10,385 nucleotides of DNA, taken from NCBI GenBank assembly GCA_947365485.1, contig CANAXK010000042.1, positions 1-10,385 of the forward strand. The letters run 5' to 3'. Under the pieces are notes generated by a model. That model had not been told where the DNA came from. It saw nothing but the letters and a program-made list of their open reading frames with translations, and searched no databases. Position numbers and translations under genes: made by a program. This document shows, piece by piece, positions 3-8,734 of this stretch (position 1 is its first letter; each line of letters begins with the position of its first letter). Source of the DNA: an uncultured bacterium (GTDB lineage Bacteria > Cyanobacteriota > Vampirovibrionia > Gastranaerophilales > Gastranaerophilaceae).

Positions 3-2201
3 AGACAAAAATACTTCGAATCAGAATTAGAAAAAGTTAAAGAACGCGAAGGCGTTAAGCAGGATACAGAAATTTCTGCAGAAGGCTTAAAATCTCTTAT
101 TCCTGTTTACAAAAACTTAATCAAAGAAGTTACAGGAAAAGAATTCCCTCAAGACCCTTATGTTCAGCTTCAAGAAGCTATTGAAGCGGTATTCCGTTCT
201 TGGAATATTCCTCGTGCGGTTGCTTACAGAAACATGAACAAAATTGACCACAATTTCGGTACTGCGGTTAACGTTCAGTCAATGGTATTCGGAAACATGG
301 GTGACGACTGCGCTACAGGTGTTTCATTCACCCGTAACCCTGCTACAGGCGAAAACAAATTCTATGGTGAATACTTAACAAACGCTCAAGGTGAAGACGT
401 TGTTGCAGGCATCAGAACACCAAAACCTATTGCAGAATTGGAAACAGAAATGCCTGACTTGTACAAGCAATACGTTGATATTGCAAAAAAACTTGAACTT
501 GGCTACAAAGACGTTCAGGATATGGAATTCACAATCGAAAGAGGTAAATTATACATTCTTCAAACACGTAACGGTAAGAGAACTGCAGCAGCTGCTGTTA
601 GAATCGCTGTTGAAATGTGTGAAGAAGGTATCATCACAAAAGAACGCGCTATTCAGCTTGTTGACCCTTATAGCGTAAACCAGATTCTTCTACCTTGCTT
701 TGACTCTAAAGCTATGGAAGAAGCTAAAAAGATTGCCCACGGTGTAAACGCTTCTCCTGGTGCAGCAGTTGGTAAAATCGTATTCGATACTGAAGAAGCT
801 GCTCAAAGAGGTGAAGCAGGCGAAAAAGTTATCCTTGTTCGTGTAGAAACTTGTCCGGATGACATCCATGGTATGGCTGTTTCACAGGGTGTTCTTACAC
901 TTCGTGGCGGTGCTACATCTCACGCAGCAGTTGTTGCAAAAGGTATGGGCAAACCTTGCGTTTCAGGTTGTGAAGATATGAAAATCGACCTTGCAAACGA
1001 AACATTAACAGGTGCAGACGGTACAGTTTACAAAAAAGATGACATCATCTCTCTTGATGGCGGCAAAGGTATTGTTATGGCAGGTGCCGTTAAGCTTGTT
1101 GAGGCAAAAATCGACGAAAACTGGAACAAGTTCTTCTCATGGGTTGACAGCATCAAGCAGTTAAAAGTTGAAGCTAACGCTGATACTCCAAAAGATATTG
1201 AAAACGCTTTGAAATTCGGCGCTGAAGGTGTTGGTCTATGTAGAACAGAACACATGTTCATGGATCCTGACAGACTTCCTTGGGTTCAAAAAATGATTAT
1301 TGCAGGAACTCCGGAAGCTCGTAGAGAAGCTTTAGACAAGCTTCTTCCTATGCAGTATTCAGATTTCTACGCAATGTTCAAGGCAATTGGTGACAAGCCT
1401 ATGACAGTTAGACTTCTTGACCCGCCTCTTCACGAGTTCTTACCTTCAAAAGAAGAGTTAATCAAGGAAGTTGCAACTCTTAAAGCTTTGAATCAAGATG
1501 CGAAAGAAAAAGAAGAAATGCTTCACATCGTAGAAAGTCTTTCTGAATCTAACCCAATGATGGGCTTGAGGGGATGCCGTTTAGGCTTGACTTATCCGGA
1601 AATCAATGAAATGCAGGTAAGAGCAATCTTTGAAGCTGCATGTGACGTTAAAAAAGAAGGTATTGACGTTAAGCCTTGGGTAATGATTCCGCTTATCGGA
1701 CACGTTAACGAGCTTAAGGTTGCAAAAGAAATCCTTGAAAAAGTTGCAGAAATTGTTATGCTTGAAAAAGGCGTTAAGGTTGAGTACAAGTTTGGTACAA
1801 TGATTGAAATTCCTCGTGCAGCTTTAACAGCTGATGAAGTTGCTGAATACGCAGAATTCTTCTCATTCGGTACAAACGACTTAACCCAGATGACATTCGG
1901 CTTCTCTCGTGACGATGCAGAAGGCAAATTCCTCAACAGATATGTTGAGAACAAAATCCTTCCTGCTAACCCGTTTGAAACACTCGACCAGAAAGGTGTT
2001 GGTAAGCTTGTTGAAATGTCAATGACATTAGGTAAAGCAGTAAATCCAAAACTTGTTGGCGGTGTTTGCGGCGAGCACGGCGGAGACCCTGATTCAGTTA
2101 AGTTCTGCCACAGAATCGGTTTGAACTACACTTCTTGTTCACCATTCAGAATCCCGCAGGCTAAGCTGGCTGCTGCGCAGGCGGTTGTTGAAGGGAAATA
2201 A
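3..2201 (+). CDS. ppdK: Pyruvate, phosphate dikinase, 5'-truncated by window edge
   Basis: Cytoplasmic enzyme interconverting pyruvate + ATP + Pi and PEP + AMP + PPi, usually serving PPi-linked glycolysis in anaerobes. The reading frame is open from base 3 and yields 732 residues. Full PPDKs run about 870-890, so roughly the first 150 residues (the start of the ATP-grasp domain) lie outside the window; the ATG at 234 is internal. Visible in order: the end of the nucleotide-binding domain (TAVNVQSMVFGN, ILQTRNGKRTA); the phosphohistidine swivel domain with GGATSHAAVVAKGMGK, catalytic His at bases 921-923 and the regulatory-type Thr two residues earlier; and the TIM-barrel PEP/pyruvate domain with GLCRTEHMFMDPDRLPW, VRLLDPPLHEFLP, SFGTNDLTQMTFGFSRDD and the GVCGEHGGDP Cys (2067-2069). 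The residue before TSH is Ala where Met is usual (GGMTSH); otherwise all core motifs are intact. No PPDK regulatory protein gene is seen nearby. Identification is secure. Confidence 0.97.
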   Translation, partial: RQKYFESELEKVKEREGVKQDTEISAEGLKSLIPVYKNLIKEVTGKEFPQDPYVQLQEAIEAVFRSWNIPRAVAYRNMNKIDHNFGTAVNVQSMVFGNMGDDCATGVSFTRNPATGENKFYGEYLTNAQGEDVVAGIRTPKPIAELETEMPDLYKQYVDIAKKLELGYKDVQDMEFTIERGKLYILQTRNGKRTAAAAVRIAVEMCEEGIITKERAIQLVDPYSVNQILLPCFDSKAMEEAKKIAHGVNASPGAAVGKIVFDTEEAAQRGEAGEKVILVRVETCPDDIHGMAVSQGVLTLRGGATSHAAVVAKGMGKPCVSGCEDMKIDLANETLTGADGTVYKKDDIISLDGGKGIVMAGAVKLVEAKIDENWNKFFSWVDSIKQLKVEANADTPKDIENALKFGAEGVGLCRTEHMFMDPDRLPWVQKMIIAGTPEARREALDKLLPMQYSDFYAMFKAIGDKPMTVRLLDPPLHEFLPSKEELIKEVATLKALNQDAKEKEEMLHIVESLSESNPMMGLRGCRLGLTYPEINEMQVRAIFEAACDVKKEGIDVKPWVMIPLIGHVNELKVAKEILEKVAEIVMLEKGVKVEYKFGTMIEIPRAALTADEVAEYAEFFSFGTNDLTQMTFGFSRDDAEGKFLNRYVENKILPANPFETLDQKGVGKLVEMSMTLGKAVNPKLVGGVCGEHGGDPDSVKFCHRIGLNYTSCSPFRIPQAKLAAAQAVVEGK

Positions 2202-2249: not shown

Positions 2250-2792
2250 TCAAAGGCTAAACATCCTTAAATTATCATCAATAATCTCCTGCGTTACACC
2301 AATATACCTCAGTGTAATATCCTGTGATGAATGATTCAGGATTTTTTGCAAAAGAGCGATATCCTTTGTCTGCTTGTAAAAATGATAGCCGAATGTCTTC
2401 CTCAAAGAATGCGTTCCGGTATGGTCTATTCCCAATGCGTCACACGCCTCTCTAATTATTCTGTATGCCTGGATTCTTGATATCGGGCGGTTTGATTTGC
2501 GGCTCTTGAATAAATACCGGCAAAGCGGTTTGCGCTCAACATATTCGCTGATAAATACCCTGATTTCTCTTGGAATTGGAAACTTCTTGGTCTTTCGGGT
2601 TTTCTTTTCTCTAATCTGAACGGTCTCCTTGTTCTTCACATCCCGAACCCGCAGGCGCAGCAGGTCAGAAACACGCAGCCCTGTATTAATCCCCATCAAA
2701 AAGAGAAGCAGGTTACGCGAGCCGCTCTCACGAAGGATACGTTTCACACCATTAATATACTCTTTGTTTCTAATTGGATCTACTACATTCAT
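2250..2792 (-). CDS. Small tyrosine recombinase/integrase, catalytic domain only
   Basis: Site-specific DNA recombinase of the phage integrase (XerC/D-like) family. The catalytic set can be read: Arg40 in NTGLRVSDLLRLR, a beta-hairpin Lys around 64-70, His128-x-x-Arg131 in HSLRKTFGYHF, His154 in LNHSS, and nucleophile Tyr163 in LRYIGV. At 180 residues it is far shorter than usual integrases (300-400) because the N-terminal core-binding/SAM-like domain is missing; the catalytic domain starts almost at once. Compact integrases of this kind occur in Firmicutes and other bacteria, often alone. The ATG at 2792 is preceded by AAGGA with 7-base spacing. It lies 117 bases downstream of the FlhA-like gene on the same strand, with no strong terminator between, so it may be co-transcribed. 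No tRNA, attachment site, excisionase or phage gene is visible. Target and role are unknown. Confidence 0.9.
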   Translation of the reverse strand: MNVVDPIRNKEYINGVKRILRESGSRNLLLFLMGINTGLRVSDLLRLRVRDVKNKETVQIREKKTRKTKKFPIPREIRVFISEYVERKPLCRYLFKSRKSNRPISRIQAYRIIREACDALGIDHTGTHSLRKTFGYHFYKQTKDIALLQKILNHSSQDITLRYIGVTQEIIDDNLRMFSL

Positions 2793-2909: not shown

Positions 2910-4373
2910 CTATATTTTCCCATCGAATTTTATATTGCACTCACTAACGAGTTCTTCATTCGCAAGCACAGTCAGATTCTGGACAAATTCCGAGAGGATT
3001 ACAAACACCATGTGGCGCAAATCCAAAGGAACAACAAGAATCGGGGTCTCGATTTTTTTAGACACAACAAATTTTTCAATCTTATCAACTATAGCCTCAA
3101 CATCTGTCGCGTCGATTCTTATAATAGCGTCATCCTCATCCTTAAAGAATGAATAAACTTTTTCCAGAGTATCCTCAGAAAGCTCAATTACACTAAGCTC
3201 GCCGTCTTTTGACAAGTCTTTGACAATATGTTTTGAAAGCGCAAGCCTTACCTTGTCCAACAAATCTTCTTTTGTAGGCTCGTTTGCGTAGTCATTGATT
3301 TTTTCGAATATATAAATAATGTTCTTTACTGAAACTCTTTCTCTGATTAAGCAAGTCAGAAGATACTTTAAGTCAGACGCTGTAATAAAATCAGGTATTA
3401 TGTTATCAACAAGGAAAGAGTTGCTTTCCAGAACGATTTCCACGTACTTGTTGATGTCGTTGTAGTCCATAATATCAGAGACTTCTTTTATTGAAACATA
3501 CTCAATTGCTTTTCCGATATACTCAACAGCGCTCATACCCTGAATCCAGAAGTCTTTGACCTTGTCTTTCTGAATCCAGATGAGCTCTTTTCCGGTAATC
3601 TCGTCAGCGAGTTCGATATCGTCTCCGTCTGCCTTGTACCCTTTTAGCTCTTCCTTGTAAAACGCCATATAGCCCGGGAAGACAACGGTGCGCAAAACTT
3701 CGATATCATGAATCTTGATATTGAACTCGTTCTGCATAAGCTCATCGCTGTTATGAAAATGGATGTGCGGAATCACGTAACCGAGAGTATCAGTAAGTTT
3801 TTGTCTGATTTTCACTGTCTCTGCAAGCAGGTTGTCGTTCTGCTCAAGAGAAATAACTTCAAGAATCTCTTCTGAAAGATTCACGACAAACTTTTCTTCT
3901 TTAATTGTGGAATACATCGCCTCCGGAGAAATCTCGTTTACAAGCGCCTGCTTAAGTACGTCAAGCTGCTTCAACTCATCTGACATCTGGTTGTTTAACT
4001 GATTTTTTCTATCCGGAGAAAGGTTTTCACTCTCAAGCTGGGATTTAATCTTCTTGATTCTGTCTTTCTGGTTGGAAATCTTTAGTTGAATCTCCTTGCA
4101 GGAAGCATAAGGGCTTGAAGGCGCAGCGAGCATCTTTTCCATGCGGTACTTAAAGCTTGTAATATTAACGATATCGTCCAAATCAGTAGCGTCTTCTTCC
4201 TGCTTTTCACGCATAAAAATACAATTGAAATCATAAGACGAGCTTGTTTCAACTTCGTGCATAGTGTACAAATCCCATCCGGCTTCTGACATCTCGTTAA
4301 GCAGATTTTCGAGCGCCTGCTTATTGTCTGTCGGAACTGATTTTATAACATATTGCATCTTTTTATTAAACAT
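2910..4373 (-). CDS. Soluble FlhA-C (FHIPEP cytoplasmic domain)-like protein with N-terminal DUF4177-like module
   Basis: 487-residue protein with no membrane segment or signal peptide, so predicted cytoplasmic. Residues ~6-55 (MQYVIKS... EAGWDLYTMHEV...FMREK) resemble the small DUF4177 fold. Residues ~90-145 are charged and heptad-like, a likely coiled coil. From ~162 to the end the protein follows the cytoplasmic part of FlhA/FHIPEP nearly colinearly: IRQKLTDTLGYVIPHIHFHN, NEFNIKIHDIEVLRTVVFPG, ELIWIQKD, NIIPDFITASDLKYLLTCLI then RERVSVKNIIYIFEKINDYA, VRLALSKHIV, and a final VVPLDLRHMVFVILSEFV stretch. True FlhA has about 300 further residues of N-terminal membrane domain forming the export gate; none is encoded here. 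The start was set at 4373 because GAGGA lies 5 bases upstream and the ATG overlaps the phosphorylase stop by 8 bases. An in-frame ATG at 4436 would add 21 poorly supported residues, and ATG 4358 lacks a clear ribosome site. Function unknown; FlhA-C docks chaperone-substrate complexes, so an adaptor role is possible. The FlhA-C likeness is judged by eye. Confidence 0.8.
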   Translation of the reverse strand: MFNKKMQYVIKSVPTDNKQALENLLNEMSEAGWDLYTMHEVETSSSYDFNCIFMREKQEEDATDLDDIVNITSFKYRMEKMLAAPSSPYASCKEIQLKISNQKDRIKKIKSQLESENLSPDRKNQLNNQMSDELKQLDVLKQALVNEISPEAMYSTIKEEKFVVNLSEEILEVISLEQNDNLLAETVKIRQKLTDTLGYVIPHIHFHNSDELMQNEFNIKIHDIEVLRTVVFPGYMAFYKEELKGYKADGDDIELADEITGKELIWIQKDKVKDFWIQGMSAVEYIGKAIEYVSIKEVSDIMDYNDINKYVEIVLESNSFLVDNIIPDFITASDLKYLLTCLIRERVSVKNIIYIFEKINDYANEPTKEDLLDKVRLALSKHIVKDLSKDGELSVIELSEDTLEKVYSFFKDEDDAIIRIDATDVEAIVDKIEKFVVSKKIETPILVVPLDLRHMVFVILSEFVQNLTVLANEELVSECNIKFDGKI

Positions 4374-5694
4374 CGTCATCCTCGTCATTTCTAATAATTT
4401 CGTATAACAAACTTTTGTGCGCAGGCTTACTTTCACTTATGATAAAAGCCTCGTCGCAAAATCTCTGCGCAGCCTTTGTGCTTTCCTCGCAGTTTGAGTA
4501 AATTGTATACAAAGTCTCGCCCTTTTTAACGTACTCTCCGCTTTTCTTGTTGAGATAAATCCCGACACTGTAATCAATTGTGTTGCTGTATTTATCCCTG
4601 CTGGCGCCGAGCAAAGAAGCTGCGTGTGCAATATTGTACGCGTTTATATTATGCACATAGCCGTTCTTCTTGGCTTCGCACTCAATCTTGAAACACGGAA
4701 GCTCAAACCTGTCGTAATCGTCAATAACATCCGGATTACCGCCCTGCGCCCTGATTAGTTCACGGAATTTTTCAAGCGCTTTTCCGGACTCTACAAGAGC
4801 TCGAAGGTAGTTTACTGCCGAGGTTGTATTTTCATACATGTCAAGGTTTTGAAGAATTATCGCAGCAAAAGAGTAGGTTAATTCTGCCAAATCACCTGTT
4901 TTTATATTCCCCTTCAAAAATTCTATTGCCTCAATTATTTCAAGCGTATTCCCGATAGCGCGCCCGAGTGGCTCTTCCATTGAAGTCACAACAGCTGTAA
5001 TCTTCTTTCCAAGCTGCTTACCGATATTCACTATAAGTCTTGAAAGATTCACAGCGTCTTCTGCTGTTTTCATAAACGCGCCCGAGCCATACTTTACATC
5101 AATAATTATTGTACTTGTGCCTGATGCCAGTTTTTTAGAGATAATAGAAGAGGCTATAAGCGCGTCATTATCAACCGTTGCAGTCTGATTTCTAAGAGAA
5201 TGCAGCTTTTTATCAGCAGGCGCAAGATTCTTGTCCTGCGAAGCAATTACTGCATTAATACTACTTACCTGATTTACAATAGCCTGTGTTGTAAGGTTTG
5301 TATTAAACCCCGGGATTGCTTCGAGTTTGTCAACAGTTCCGGCTGCGTGCCCGAGTCCTCTGTCTGCAAGCTTTGCCACAGGGATTCCGGCTGCAGCAAG
5401 CAGCGGTATAAGGGTTATAGTAACATTATCTCCCACACCGCCTGTTGAGTGTTTATCCACAACAGAGTTTTTCAGCTCGCCAAAGTCAATGGTGTCACCG
5501 GAGGAAGCGAGAGCTTCGGTAAAAAACGCGGTCTCATCCTCGTTCAGGCCTTTGAAGCAAACAGCCATAAGCCATGCCGAGATTTGAGAATCGTTTGCAG
5601 ACTCGCTCATAATTGAATTAACAATGTAGCAAATCTCGTCTCTGGTATGGCGAAGTCCCTGTTTTTTCTTTTCAATCAGGTCTACAAAGTTCAT
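4366..5694 (-). CDS. pdp: Pyrimidine-nucleoside phosphorylase (thymidine phosphorylase family)
   Basis: Cytoplasmic salvage enzyme phosphorolysing uridine/thymidine-type nucleosides to base plus (deoxy)ribose-1-phosphate. At 442 residues it has the usual length. Visible: N-terminal alpha domain VDLIEKKKQG, phosphate site K81-HSTGGVGD, DRGLGHAAGTVDKLEAIPGF (111-130), APADKKLHSLRNQTATV with Arg168, and ASSIISKK with Ser183 and Lys187. These match the E. coli thymidine phosphorylase catalytic residues at a constant offset of three. Lys108, where E. coli enzyme has Met111, favours the broad-specificity pyrimidine type (pdp) over strict deoA; that distinction is from memory of the family. The usual SGRGLGHTGGT appears as ADRGLGHAAGT, with Gly, Thr and Gly replaced next to the phosphate/ribose site. 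The start ATG shares its last-strand base with the skp stop (TAATG), and the 3' end overlaps the next gene by 8 bases, so expression is probably coupled. Confidence 0.93.
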   Translation of the reverse strand: MNFVDLIEKKKQGLRHTRDEICYIVNSIMSESANDSQISAWLMAVCFKGLNEDETAFFTEALASSGDTIDFGELKNSVVDKHSTGGVGDNVTITLIPLLAAAGIPVAKLADRGLGHAAGTVDKLEAIPGFNTNLTTQAIVNQVSSINAVIASQDKNLAPADKKLHSLRNQTATVDNDALIASSIISKKLASGTSTIIIDVKYGSGAFMKTAEDAVNLSRLIVNIGKQLGKKITAVVTSMEEPLGRAIGNTLEIIEAIEFLKGNIKTGDLAELTYSFAAIILQNLDMYENTTSAVNYLRALVESGKALEKFRELIRAQGGNPDVIDDYDRFELPCFKIECEAKKNGYVHNINAYNIAHAASLLGASRDKYSNTIDYSVGIYLNKKSGEYVKKGETLYTIYSNCEESTKAAQRFCDEAFIISESKPAHKSLLYEIIRNDEDDDV

Positions 5695-6143
5695 TATTTT
5701 TTAACGCCCTTTAGTTTTGCAATTACAATATCGGTAATATCAACACCGCCGACAAAAACACCTCTTTGATCCATAATCGCATCGAGTTTTTGTTCAACCA
5801 TTACAGCTTTTGCAGCGTCTTTAATCTTTGTATAAACTTCCTGTTCTCTTTTGTTTTTCAAAGTAACATAAGCTGTTTCTTTTGCCTTAAATTCCTGTGC
5901 AACTTTTTCTTCAAAAGTCTGTTTCTTCAAAGGTGTATCCAAAGATTTGTATTCTTTTTCTTTATCAACAAGAAATTGCTGCATTTCAAGTCCTTTTGCG
6001 TCAACTTCTTTTGTAACCTGTTTTGCGTAATCGTAGTTTGCAATTACTTTTGCATAGTCAATATAACCAACTCCGCCTGCATTAGCAATACCTGTCACAG
6101 CAGCAAGCATAAGTACAACAAGCCCTAATTTAAATTTTTTCAT
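5694..6143 (-). CDS. Skp/OmpH-like periplasmic chaperone
   Basis: Predicted periplasmic chaperone of 149 residues that would hold unfolded outer-membrane proteins for delivery to the BamA machine encoded just upstream. Residues 1-22 (MKKFKLGLVVLMLAAVTGIANA) form a signal peptide with AxA-type cleavage before GGVGYIDYAKV, the usual OmpH mature start (xxGYIDxxKV). Residues ~35-115 are a long charged helical stretch (QQFLVDKEKEYKSLD, KQTFEEKVAQEF) expected to form the coiled-coil arms, and VEQKLDAIMDQRGVFVGG plus DITDIVIAKLKG matches the C-terminal strand/helix (VGGxDITDxV). The start is placed at 6143, where AGGAGG sits 6 bases upstream; an upstream ATG at 6179 would put 12 residues before the signal peptide. 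It follows the Omp85 gene by 46 bases and its TAA overlaps the pdp ATG. Confidence 0.9.
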   Translation of the reverse strand: MKKFKLGLVVLMLAAVTGIANAGGVGYIDYAKVIANYDYAKQVTKEVDAKGLEMQQFLVDKEKEYKSLDTPLKKQTFEEKVAQEFKAKETAYVTLKNKREQEVYTKIKDAAKAVMVEQKLDAIMDQRGVFVGGVDITDIVIAKLKGVKK

Positions 6144-6149
6144 ACAAAA

Positions 6150-6155
6150 CCTCCT
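6150..6155 (-). promoter_or_regulatory. Strong ribosome binding site of the skp-like gene
   Basis: Reads AGGAGG on the minus strand, 6 bases before ATG 6143. It decides this start over the in-frame ATG at 6179. It is the most canonical ribosome site in the cluster, consistent with high demand for the chaperone. Confidence 0.85.
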
Positions 6156-6189
6156 AATATTTATAATATCATTATACAATACTTTTTTA

Positions 6190-8088
6190 TTAGTACATCA
6201 TATCGCCTGCACCAAACGTGAAGTATCCGTTAGGCGAACCGTTCGGGCCAGGGTTTGTAAGCGGGAAGCCGTAGTCAACAGACAGCGGACCAACCCCCGG
6301 CATATTTATCTTCAAACCAATACCGGCAGTGATTGCATGAATCGGTCTGTCATATAATGTACTAGAAATAGTAGGGTCAAACACACGCCCTGCATCAACC
6401 CAGAAAGTTATTCTCAAATTCTGCAAGAAGTTAACCTTGAGCCTGTCAACAAACGGGATCGGAGTTGCAAGCTCTGCTGAACCCATAATGAACGATGTAC
6501 CTGTACCAACCCCGTTAACCTTGTAACCTCTAATTGTATAAGGTCCGCCAAGACGATAAGCCATAACTTCAGGCATGTCTGAGCCATGCGCCTTCAAACC
6601 GCCACGGCCGGTAAAGGTCAAAGAAGACTTTTTGGCGATTGGAATATATTTTTTAGCCATTGCTGTTAAGCGCCCGTTTGTTTTACCAAATCCGTCCATC
6701 CCGAAAGCTTCTTCATATCTAACAGAAGCAAGAGCACCATGGCGCGGGTTAACAACAGAGTCTCTGGAATCGTAAGCCAACCCCGGAGCTATTCTCAGGA
6801 ACAAGCCACCTTCAAGCTGCTTAGCACGGTCTGCAATATTAAGGTTGTGCAGCCTGTACATAGAGCTTATGCCTGCTATATCACCTTCATCAAGGTTAAT
6901 ATATTCAACGCCGCCGGTTAATGTTGTTGACAGATGACGGTTGTATTTGAGCCTGTGAGCCACAGTACCCTCAATACCGATTCTGCGCTCAACTGCTAGC
7001 GGAATCTGATAGCTTCCCAAGTCTCTGAAATAGATTTTGCTCATCAAAGAATTGTCAGCATTCAGAAAATGAGGCTCAAAAAAGCTCAATTCAGCCTGAT
7101 AGTTCATGTGGTTCTTGATTGAAGAGTCGCTCATCAGGATACCGGAACCAACCAGACCTGTAAGAGACACCCTCTGGTTCATTCCTCTAAAGTTGTTATC
7201 TGAGATACCAACAGAGCCAAACGCACCGGTTGCAGAATCCAGACCGCCGCCCACTGAAACAGAAGCGGTTCTCTGTTCTTTTAGTTCAATTGTGATATCA
7301 AACTTATCCGGATCGTCCTCTGATACTTCAATCGTTCTGTTTACATCCTTAAACGCCTGTGTTGAATACAGTCTAACCAAATCCTGTTTAACCTGGTTTT
7401 CGTTATAAACAGTACCCGGTTCGGTCATAATATTACGTTCAACAACATAGCCCTTAGTTTTTTCGTTTCCGGTAATCAGAATCTTGTTAATCTTACCTTC
7501 TGTAATACTAAGGTTTAAAGTCCCATCTGGATCATCGTAAATTGAATCGATTTTGGATAGAATATAACCCTTAGAATAATAGCAATTATTAATCTTTTCC
7601 ATTGCTTCGTTAATTGCGGTGATGTTTTGCGGCTTGCCTTTTAGAGGAAGCAGATACTGCATAATCTCGTCACCCGAAACAACAGTGTTACCTTCTATCG
7701 TAAAGTCTGTTACAGGAATATTTTCCTCCAGAATAATCTTGAGAGAAATCGTTCCGTTTGAGTTTTTAACCGGAATCGCCTTCATTCTTTCTGTAAAATA
7801 TCCGAGTCTGTAGATTGTCTTCAAGTCCTGCTGCATTTGGTCTTTGTCATACAAATCACCCTTTTTCAGTGACATTTTTGAGAGGATGTAGTCAGGCTTA
7901 ATGATATTAGAGCCCAGAATCTCAATATCGTTAATATACGCTGTATTGCTGTCGTAAGAAGATTCTTCAATGTAATCAAGTTCTTCTTCGCTTTCTTCTG
8001 CAAGGCAAGCACAATAAGGGGTTGATAAAGCTCCCAACACCATTGCAAAGATTATTAAGTTTTTATATAAACCTGATAGATTAATCAA
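6190..8088 (-). CDS. bamA: Omp85/BamA outer-membrane protein assembly factor with three POTRA domains
   Basis: Outer-membrane beta-barrel that folds and inserts other barrel proteins. Of 632 residues, ~1-30 are a signal peptide (n-region Lys9, hydrophobic LIIFAMVLGAL, cleavage near CLA/EE), followed by an acidic linker. Three POTRA domains follow at ~50-122 (INDIEILGSNIIKPDYI), ~124-197 (VTDFTIEGNTVVSGDEIMQY) and ~198-271 (INKILITGNEKTKGYVV). The barrel, ~274-632, begins ASVSVGGGLDSATGAFGSVG and carries the lid-loop motif GGPYTIRGYKVNG (Arg520) and WVDAGRVF; it ends in an aromatic residue (GAGDMMY). E. coli BamA has five POTRAs and ~810 residues; three is typical of cyanobacterial Omp85. The start is TTG: an in-frame TAG directly precedes it, GGAG lies 7 bases upstream, and the next Met (residue 16) would lose the signal n-region. 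First gene of the minus-strand cluster, directly before the skp-like gene. A TamA-like role is less likely because of the Skp neighbour. Confidence 0.93.
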   Translation of the reverse strand: MINLSGLYKNLIIFAMVLGALSTPYCACLAEESEEELDYIEESSYDSNTAYINDIEILGSNIIKPDYILSKMSLKKGDLYDKDQMQQDLKTIYRLGYFTERMKAIPVKNSNGTISLKIILEENIPVTDFTIEGNTVVSGDEIMQYLLPLKGKPQNITAINEAMEKINNCYYSKGYILSKIDSIYDDPDGTLNLSITEGKINKILITGNEKTKGYVVERNIMTEPGTVYNENQVKQDLVRLYSTQAFKDVNRTIEVSEDDPDKFDITIELKEQRTASVSVGGGLDSATGAFGSVGISDNNFRGMNQRVSLTGLVGSGILMSDSSIKNHMNYQAELSFFEPHFLNADNSLMSKIYFRDLGSYQIPLAVERRIGIEGTVAHRLKYNRHLSTTLTGGVEYINLDEGDIAGISSMYRLHNLNIADRAKQLEGGLFLRIAPGLAYDSRDSVVNPRHGALASVRYEEAFGMDGFGKTNGRLTAMAKKYIPIAKKSSLTFTGRGGLKAHGSDMPEVMAYRLGGPYTIRGYKVNGVGTGTSFIMGSAELATPIPFVDRLKVNFLQNLRITFWVDAGRVFDPTISSTLYDRPIHAITAGIGLKINMPGVGPLSVDYGFPLTNPGPNGSPNGYFTFGAGDMMY

Positions 8089-8224: not shown

Positions 8225-8734
8225 ATGCCGTCAAATAAATCATTTTTCGTAAAAAACGAAGCCTCGATATCCTTGCGCGACGGGAGCATAGGCGACTATC
8301 TGGGCGGAGGAATCAAATACAGCACCCCATCAGGGAGCTATGAGGGCATGGTTGCATTCCGCGCGAACAAGGATTCAAAAGGCGGGTTTGCGGAATTTAA
8401 GTACACCACCCCGAAAGTCAAGGATATGGCTCTTGAATCAAGAACAAGGGTTCAGCTTGAAGACACCGGAAACAGCATGACAACAAGGCTTGCCGCTAAA
8501 TACTCAACCAACATCGGGAAAATCAACATTTACGAAATCGCCGGAGCAACAATAAAGTTCAAAGGCGGTCTCAAATCCCTCACCCCGTCCTCGCTGACCG
8601 GAGCCGGAATTAACGTAACACCGAAGCTCAACTGTTACGTAGAGGGCGAAGTCAGCAAGAGCTACAACACACAAGCAAAGAGCTGGGGAACATTTTCTCC
8701 GGCTGCTTATGTGGGTGTGAAGTACACATTCTAA
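8225..8734 (+). CDS. Hypothetical beta-strand-rich protein, possible barrel-like, no signal peptide
   Basis: 169-residue protein of unrecognised family. It is rich in Gly, Ser, Thr and Lys, with alternating short strands (GGGIKYSTPSGSYEGMVAF, GGFAEFKYTTPKV, TTRLAAKYSTNIGKINIYEI) and ends AAYVGVKYTF, a Phe-terminated strand like the C-terminus of outer-membrane barrels. There is, however, no hydrophobic N-terminal signal, and the frame upstream of the ATG encodes none either. ATG 8225 is well supported by AAGGGGG about 6 bases upstream. Base composition differs from its neighbours: the stretch 8281-8400 is about 50-57% G+C by hand count, against an A+T-rich background. It is divergent from bamA. 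It may be a small barrel or autotransporter-like relic, a cytoplasmic beta protein, or a laterally acquired gene. The gene call is firm; the function is unknown. Confidence 0.8.
   Translation: MPSNKSFFVKNEASISLRDGSIGDYLGGGIKYSTPSGSYEGMVAFRANKDSKGGFAEFKYTTPKVKDMALESRTRVQLEDTGNSMTTRLAAKYSTNIGKINIYEIAGATIKFKGGLKSLTPSSLTGAGINVTPKLNCYVEGEVSKSYNTQAKSWGTFSPAAYVGVKYTF

Follow-up and report, generated by a model that had tools for sequence, protein, structure and literature searches.

A membrane-free FlhA cytoplasmic-domain protein kept across Gastranaerophilales: a possible new accessory of a protein-export system

In FlhA/SctV, regarded as a single protein, the membrane portion and the cytoplasmic portion are taken to work jointly. 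According to the available text of two studies, the cytoplasmic domain, FlhA-C, is the docking domain for chaperones (PMC9431611, PMC8166844). In Salmonella, Gly368 is described as needed for the open-close motion of FlhA-C and Phe459 for substrate recognition (PMC9431611), and the linker residues Glu351, Trp354 and Asp356 are described as binding to the neighbouring subunit at its D1 and D3 (PMC8166844). The soluble FlhA-C used in the laboratory covers residues 328-692, and linker variants as well as linker-less FlhA-C are reported to be monomeric in solution (PMC8166844). The NF-T3SS of Myxococcales (the "Myxo" group) is flagellum-derived, lacks the motility parts and was once annotated as a decaying relic, as presented in the accessible part of Abby and Rocha 2012 (PMC3459982). 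From other bacteria, Kaplan et al. 2022 describe a hat-like structure that is akin to the export apparatus of the flagellum; we do not take it for the same thing as the protein reported here, and Gastranaerophilales are not mentioned in the available part of that paper (PMC9380563). In the open-access literature, the studies of Di Rienzi et al. and Soo et al. among it, we found neither a natural soluble FlhA-C nor a second export system in this order, in agreement with an earlier note on this DNA, which knew of no described system of this architecture.

The window, i.e. the whole stretch of DNA that was analysed, is an entire contig (G000:C42) of 10,385 nucleotides, from a metagenome-assembled genome of 1.63 Mb that is 83.8% complete. 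We use the term stand-alone for the membrane-free FlhA-C protein of 487 residues encoded at 2910-4373 on the minus strand, and for its orthologues. The features are as follows.

2910..4373, minus strand: stand-alone FlhA-C protein, 487 aa, stop included (profiles, alignment)
4194..4373, minus strand: DUF4177-like beta-alpha-beta-beta domain, residues 1-60 (profile and predicted fold)
3930..4157, minus strand: helices (hairpin/coiled coil), residues 73-148, in place of the FlhA membrane domain (prediction)
2913..3926, minus strand: FlhA cytoplasmic domain (D1-D4), residues 150-487 (profile, solved structures, predicted fold)
3873..3875, minus strand: codon of Ser167, at the place of the GYXLI glycine (residue alignment)
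3291..3362, minus strand: residues 338-361, the best-kept stretch of D3, LTCLIRERVSVKNIIYIFEKIND region (column conservation)
4366..5694, minus strand: deoA-like pyrimidine nucleoside phosphorylase; its end overlaps the stand-alone's start (Pfam, comparison of loci)
5694..6179, minus strand: skp/ompH-like periplasmic chaperone (Pfam)
6190..8088, minus strand: bamA/Omp85 with POTRA domains (Pfam)

The start codon is the ATG at 4373, which lies within the final codons of the upstream gene, whose stop ends at 4366. A longer frame of 508 residues from 4436 was judged to be over-extended because the relatives start at the later methionine.

The stand-alone matches the FHIPEP profile (PF00771) over positions 321-655 of 657, with an E-value of 2.7e-45 and 155.5 bits (cut-off 29.1), so the concern of the earlier note that profile searches might miss FHIPEP falls away. 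A Pfam profile search gave no match to the membrane part, profile positions 1-320. By sequence, the protein matches the solved FlhA cytoplasmic domain 3mix (E 2.6e-20). Its predicted model, with a pLDDT of 81, contains all four subdomains of FlhA-C and aligns to 6ch1 over 336 columns with a Foldseek E-value of 2.8e-22 and a TM-score of 0.82 by target length. The Kyte-Doolittle mean over 19 residues peaks at 1.65, compared with 2.89 and 2.72 for the two full-length FlhAs of the same genome, in which 78 and 81 Kyte-Doolittle windows exceed 1.6; neither a membrane helix nor a signal peptide was seen in the stand-alone when hydropathy was scanned for membrane segments. The soluble FlhA-C derivative without membrane segments, as the earlier note had it, is therefore confirmed by profile and hydropathy alike.

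Compared with flagellar FlhA/FHIPEP (TIGR01398, PF00771), the whole of D1-D4 is recovered by profile and fold, with D3 best kept. Unlike flagellar FlhA, the stand-alone has no membrane domain, no hinge glycine and no chaperone aromatic, and it carries an additional N-terminal domain and a hairpin. It obtains 134.5 bits in the flagellar FlhA equivalog, where the cut-off is 772.1, while exceeding the Pfam FHIPEP cut-off. With the injectisome proteins SctV/HrcV/YscV (TIGR01399) it shares the fold of the cytoplasmic domain (7alw, 7qij and 6wa6 are among the hits), but it scores 82.2 bits against a cut-off of 692, and its nearest kin are the FlhA-B proteins of its own order, described below. The stand-alone is thus a FHIPEP-derived protein that scores below the equivalog cut-off of the gate protein itself; it is real and conserved, and it is not known to us in this form.

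The N-terminus had been called DUF4177-like. Against DUF4177 (PF13783) the protein of the window obtains 13.9 bits as a whole and 17.4 as an N-terminal slice, both under the Pfam cut-off of 25. The profile is matched at E <= 1 by the N-terminal slices of all 24 aligned stand-alones, the best at 2.6e-5, and by 18 of the 24 full-length proteins, and the slice is predicted to fold as beta-alpha-beta-beta (pLDDT 85). DUF4177-like is therefore a fair label, with membership below the Pfam cut-off; unlike DUF4177, the domain is here fused to FlhA-C. No significantly similar solved structure was found by Foldseek (best E 0.036) or by profile (best E 0.69), and the Foldseek hits, generic ferredoxin-like or ACT-like pieces, were not trusted as a known fold. 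A function of DUF4177 was not found in the open-access literature. The region before FlhA-C, described earlier as a coiled coil, is modelled as three helices (73-82, 88-113 and 120-148), which may form a hairpin or coiled coil. FliJ is a coiled coil that binds FlhA, and that the hairpin might imitate FliJ is only an idea.

Among 57 relatives sampled, the stand-alone is found in 54 of the 56 Gastranaerophilales genomes, counted from the matches listed, where the stand-alone rows come first by E-value. It is missing in two genomes that are 80% (G012) and 83% (G053) complete, and FHIPEP is altogether absent from G056, the sole sampled relative that is not a member of the order. When 240 genomes were sampled from the class, the matches listed covered 144 members of the order, and 143 of these have the stand-alone, the exception being G262; another 34 genomes have no match, and the order of the list suggests that they belong to other orders. 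The N-terminal domain and hairpin were not seen in other orders, where the FHIPEP matches of 42 genomes never begin before profile position 122. Twenty-four stand-alones from seven families align over their full length, with 31-81% identity to the protein of the window and 35 invariant columns, 11 of which fall within the first 53 residues. The order of DUF4177-like domain, helices and FlhA-C is kept in 24/24, so the fusion put forward from the single sequence holds across the order.

A full-length flhA had been recommended as a search target in this genome, and two full-length FHIPEP proteins are encoded outside the window. The stand-alone is therefore a third FHIPEP paralogue of Gastranaerophilales, separate from both. 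One of the two, FlhA-A (865 bits), is encoded together with flhB in a gate operon, which in relatives reads fliP-fliQ-fliR-flhB-flhA; the other, FlhA-B (715 bits), lies alongside fliH and a FliG-like gene. In sequence searches FlhA-B is the next relative of the stand-alone (E about 1e-33), ahead of FlhA-A (about 1e-15). We built a tree of 59 cytoplasmic domains, including the 24 stand-alones, FlhA-A, FlhA-B and the B-type FlhAs of other orders. The stand-alones form one clade (100/100), within which the rows follow the families of the order. This clade sits in a group with FlhA-B and the B-type FlhAs of other orders (97/94), with FlhA-A apart, and within that group the three meet at one open fork. 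The branches of the stand-alones are longer than those of FlhA-B, and two long-branch fusions join them at 94/91.

FliP, FlhB and FliF are likewise of two kinds across the relatives: in the 56 members of the order, at least two matches were obtained for FliP in 50, for FlhB in 49 and for FliF in 52, the extra rows being partly fragments at contig edges. The two systems, A and B, are best seen in a genome of eight contigs (G039), in which the genes were labelled partly by eye from sequence and partly confirmed by profile. System A consists there of flgB-flgC-fliE-fliF-fliG-fliH-fliI, with fliP to flhA on the same contig, and its FliG is the canonical three-domain protein. System B contains flgF/flgG-like genes, flgB, flgC, fliE, fliF, a FliG-like pair that matches nothing in Pfam, fliH, flhA-B and fliI. 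A FliM/N-like protein forms its second cluster together with fliO, fliP, fliQ and fliR; further parts are flhB with a sigma-factor-like gene and fliJ-fliK-flgD-flgE. The flagellar equivalog cut-offs are missed by FlhA-B (675.6 against 772.1) and FliF-B (123.8 against 129.75), and the FliG-like protein gives no match; FlhB-B passes barely (349.7 vs 349.25), and FlhA-A and FliG-A pass. System B occurs order-wide, for example at L115, L175 and L176 in this genome and at L252 and L261 in G077, and its FliG-like protein is recognised by neither Pfam nor NCBIfam models.

The two systems come apart in 54 genomes of the family of the window, hand-picked to span 26 genera. Thirteen of them have FlhA-A, and all thirteen have FliG_C, flagellin, two FliP and the stand-alone, with FlhA-B in 12. 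The remaining 41 lack FlhA-A. FliG_C is found in none of these and flagellin in one (G223), whereas each has exactly one FliP; FlhA-B is present in 39 and the stand-alone in 40. As the genomes are related and share losses, the counts do not represent independent events. Over the whole set, the genomes carrying the stand-alone have FliP-B in 53/53 and FlhA-B in 50/53. In ten further genomes, including that of the window, flagellin and FliG_C are present. Losses occur within a single genus (g33), where G221 has system A and G217 and G223 do not. The flagellin-like gene of G223 (G223:C1:201268-201672), in a genome without FlhA-A or FliG_C, is perhaps a leftover. In all six genomes without system A that we chose for inspection, the clusters fliE-fliF-fliG'-fliH-flhA-B and fliMN-fliO-fliP-fliQ-fliR are intact; no rod genes were among the neighbours of fliE in the genomes read.

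System A is the flagellum, which has been lost repeatedly, and system B is a flagellar-type export system without flagellin, with its own gate and with no recognisable FliG motor domain. Because the stand-alone is kept where FlhA-A, FliG_C and flagellin are lost, it tracks system B and not the flagellum; that it is a part of the flagellum was rejected on the 40 of 41 family genomes that keep it without FlhA-A. Four genomes are discordant and may reflect gaps in drafts: G262 (98% complete) has FlhA-B but lacks the stand-alone, no FlhA-B was found in G249 and G143 beside their stand-alone and FliP-B, and G224 has system A and FliP-B with no FlhA-B found. Much as the NF-T3SS of Myxococcales was annotated as a decaying relic, system B has been handled as an incomplete flagellum, according to the accessible text of PMC4040986; unlike that NF-T3SS, system B keeps flagellar-type FliF and FliE, and rod and hook genes in G039. 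In the part of Di Rienzi et al. that is available, flgG, flgG, flgC, fliF, fliH, flhA, fliI and flgE are on one contig and flhB is apart from fliPQR. From that excerpt, this gene order looks like system B, and the second flhA of that study may be the stand-alone. Since the flagellum was lost many times with system B and the stand-alone kept, the "incomplete flagella" of these common gut bacteria, which are relatives of cyanobacteria, are more aptly regarded as an export system in its own right, second to the flagellum and intact.

Residue changes were mapped to Salmonella positions through the alignment of the stand-alone to solved FlhA cytoplasmic domains. At the place of the GYXLI glycine all 24 stand-alones have serine, against glycine in 33/33 full-length FlhA rows (FlhA-A 12/12, FlhA-B 10/10, B-type of other orders 11/11). 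The aromatic of the chaperone dimple (Phe459 place) is absent in 24/24, with Thr, Ser, Asn, Leu or Lys instead; the full-length proteins have F in FlhA-A and mostly Y in FlhA-B. The linker aromatic (Trp354 place) is Tyr in 18 and Phe in 6 of the 24, Tyr in 21/21 B-type FlhAs and Met/Leu in FlhA-A. The Arg391 place is Arg in 24/24, and the linker residues Glu351 and Asp356 are not kept. Only 26 of the 174 columns that are invariant in 21 B-type FlhAs, many of them in D3, are kept at >=80% of the stand-alones, so the surfaces of the protein must be much changed.

Taken together, an order-wide soluble FlhA-C kept with system B suggests that a protein-export machine has an accessory component not recognised so far. 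Our main reading, to which we give a probability of roughly one half, is that the stand-alone is a soluble paralogue derived from FlhA-B that acts on the export gate of system B from the cytosol. That it is an accessory of system B is probable in itself. This reading draws on the homology, the fold prediction, the order-wide conservation, the single clade, the co-retention and the residue changes, from which we infer a docking on the FlhA-B ring and a regulation of the gate. The cytoplasmic domain of FlhA-B would have been copied, and the copy would have lost the membrane domain and gained the DUF4177-like domain and the helical hairpin. The product would dock on or into the FlhA-B ring via the kept linker aromatic and its D1/D3 surfaces, a form of the accessory reading that we put forward tentatively. 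It would neither accept chaperone-substrate cargo in the normal manner nor perform the opening swing of FlhA-C. With a linker that could still meet a neighbouring FlhA-C, and without the usual cargo uptake and opening, it may act as a cap, a plug or a switch on the FlhA ring of system B; its N-terminal domain and its hairpin would serve as the input, through which a partner or a signal is brought in. A gate regulated by a soluble FlhA-C pseudo-subunit on or in the FlhA ring, the ring being heteromeric or capped, would be undescribed in type III systems, and this most specific version is rather doubtful. Like the laboratory fragment, the stand-alone is a membrane-free FlhA-C; unlike it, it is a natural, conserved gene. 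By analogy, and because linker variants and linker-less FlhA-C are reported to be monomeric in solution (PMC8166844), a natural soluble FlhA-C could stay a monomer as long as it has not encountered a ring. If true, an FlhA ring can have a separate regulator, and the stand-alone would be a natural reagent for dissecting gating.

The same residues bear on another possible role in system B, that of a cytosolic cargo receptor that hands the chaperone-substrate complexes of system B to the membrane ring of FlhA-B. FlhA-C is the docking domain for chaperones in the sections available of PMC9431611 and PMC8166844; the Asp456 place is Asp in 23/24 stand-alones, and all four subdomains are predicted. 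However, the dimple aromatic is replaced in every stand-alone, the hinge glycine is lost, and the Thr490 place is variable; Thr490 is not kept in the B-type FlhAs of other orders either. A cargo receptor is, on this balance, unlikely.

The genomic neighbours led the earlier note to suggest that the protein serves a different process as adaptor or scaffold, possibly envelope protein traffic. With BamA and Skp as partners this would be the traffic of outer-membrane proteins, and FlhA-C would have been diverted from type III export. In the family of the window the linkage is real: a script finds the order bamA-skp-(phosphorylase)-stand-alone in 77/80 nearest loci, which are the best 80 of 248 and thus lean to close relatives. 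Between skp and the stand-alone, these 77 loci have deoA in 44, another gene in 9 (at L256, the single locus tested, it is a PNP/UDP phosphorylase) and nothing in 24. Of the three remaining loci, L058 has the same order by eye, which raises the count to 78, L067 begins in deoA and L100 lacks the order. The loss of the canonical chaperone site and hinge, and the three genomes in which the stand-alone occurs with no FlhA-B found (G249, G143, G224), also fit a role elsewhere. However, bamA is adjacent in 0/21 loci of six other families (f2-f7), 4 of the 21 being cut off upstream, and the protein is conserved there; the linkage, and with it the conservation of the operon, is confined to the family of the window. 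Retention, moreover, follows system B, and a place next to Skp in the periplasm is unlikely for a protein in which neither a signal peptide nor a membrane segment was seen. The idea of envelope traffic is weakened by these results, and we hold it to be distinctly improbable.

Nor is the gene always outside flagellar loci, as had been stated; this is so in the window, but in genus g7 (G039, G044) it lies between rplT and fliJ-fliK-flgD-flgE, directly upstream of fliJ. In G047, of the same family, rplT is beside the stand-alone and fliJ is absent. Among the loci read, the two genomes of g7 are the only ones with the stand-alone beside system B genes.

If flhA had been duplicated and the stand-alone were what remains of a copy in decay or without function, the long branches and the many changed columns would be accounted for, but the frame is open in nearly every genome listed in both samples, and 35 columns stay invariant over 31-81% identity in a protein of uniform three-part architecture that follows the families of the order, which makes decay very improbable. 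An assembly break or a split flhA gene, a caveat raised earlier for which the absent N-terminal half is the sole argument, can be dismissed, since proteins of about 490 residues with the same N-terminal domain recur in unrelated assemblies, no half is missing and two complete flhA genes lie elsewhere.

Other frames of the window were noted. Just downstream of the stand-alone, 2250-2792 (minus strand) encodes a XerC/D-like integrase catalytic domain of 180 residues; of the 80 loci listed, 12 have a match to it behind the stand-alone. A 169-residue frame at 8225-8734 (plus strand) has no Pfam match and ends in YTF, an ending common in outer-membrane barrels. At 234-2201 (plus strand) a PPDK-like frame is without most of the N-terminal domain (655 residues, compared to 888 in L118), owing to either the contig edge or a frameshift.

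In this group, FlhA-C appears to have been reused widely as a module. Three further FlhA-C proteins (L244:4697-7684 in G011:C17, L245:3086-4882 in G001:C30 and L246:3042-4823 in G134:C9) are anchored by a hydrophobic stretch and have FlhA-C behind an N-terminal part that resembles system B's FliG-like protein. In L244 a FliI-like ATPase domain follows FlhA-C in the same chain of 995 residues. Among the best 120 relatives of this fusion (P0121-P0240, of which the sequences P0129 and P0139 were examined), the ATPase domain is found in 9, Peptidase_M10 (PF00413) in 7 and both in 2. Short FlhA-C pieces of 215-296 residues occur at L247 and L248 (G225:C10 and C34) and at L249:3146-4036 (G143:C7); they match the profile in two blocks, skipping positions from about 405 to 450, on the D2 side.
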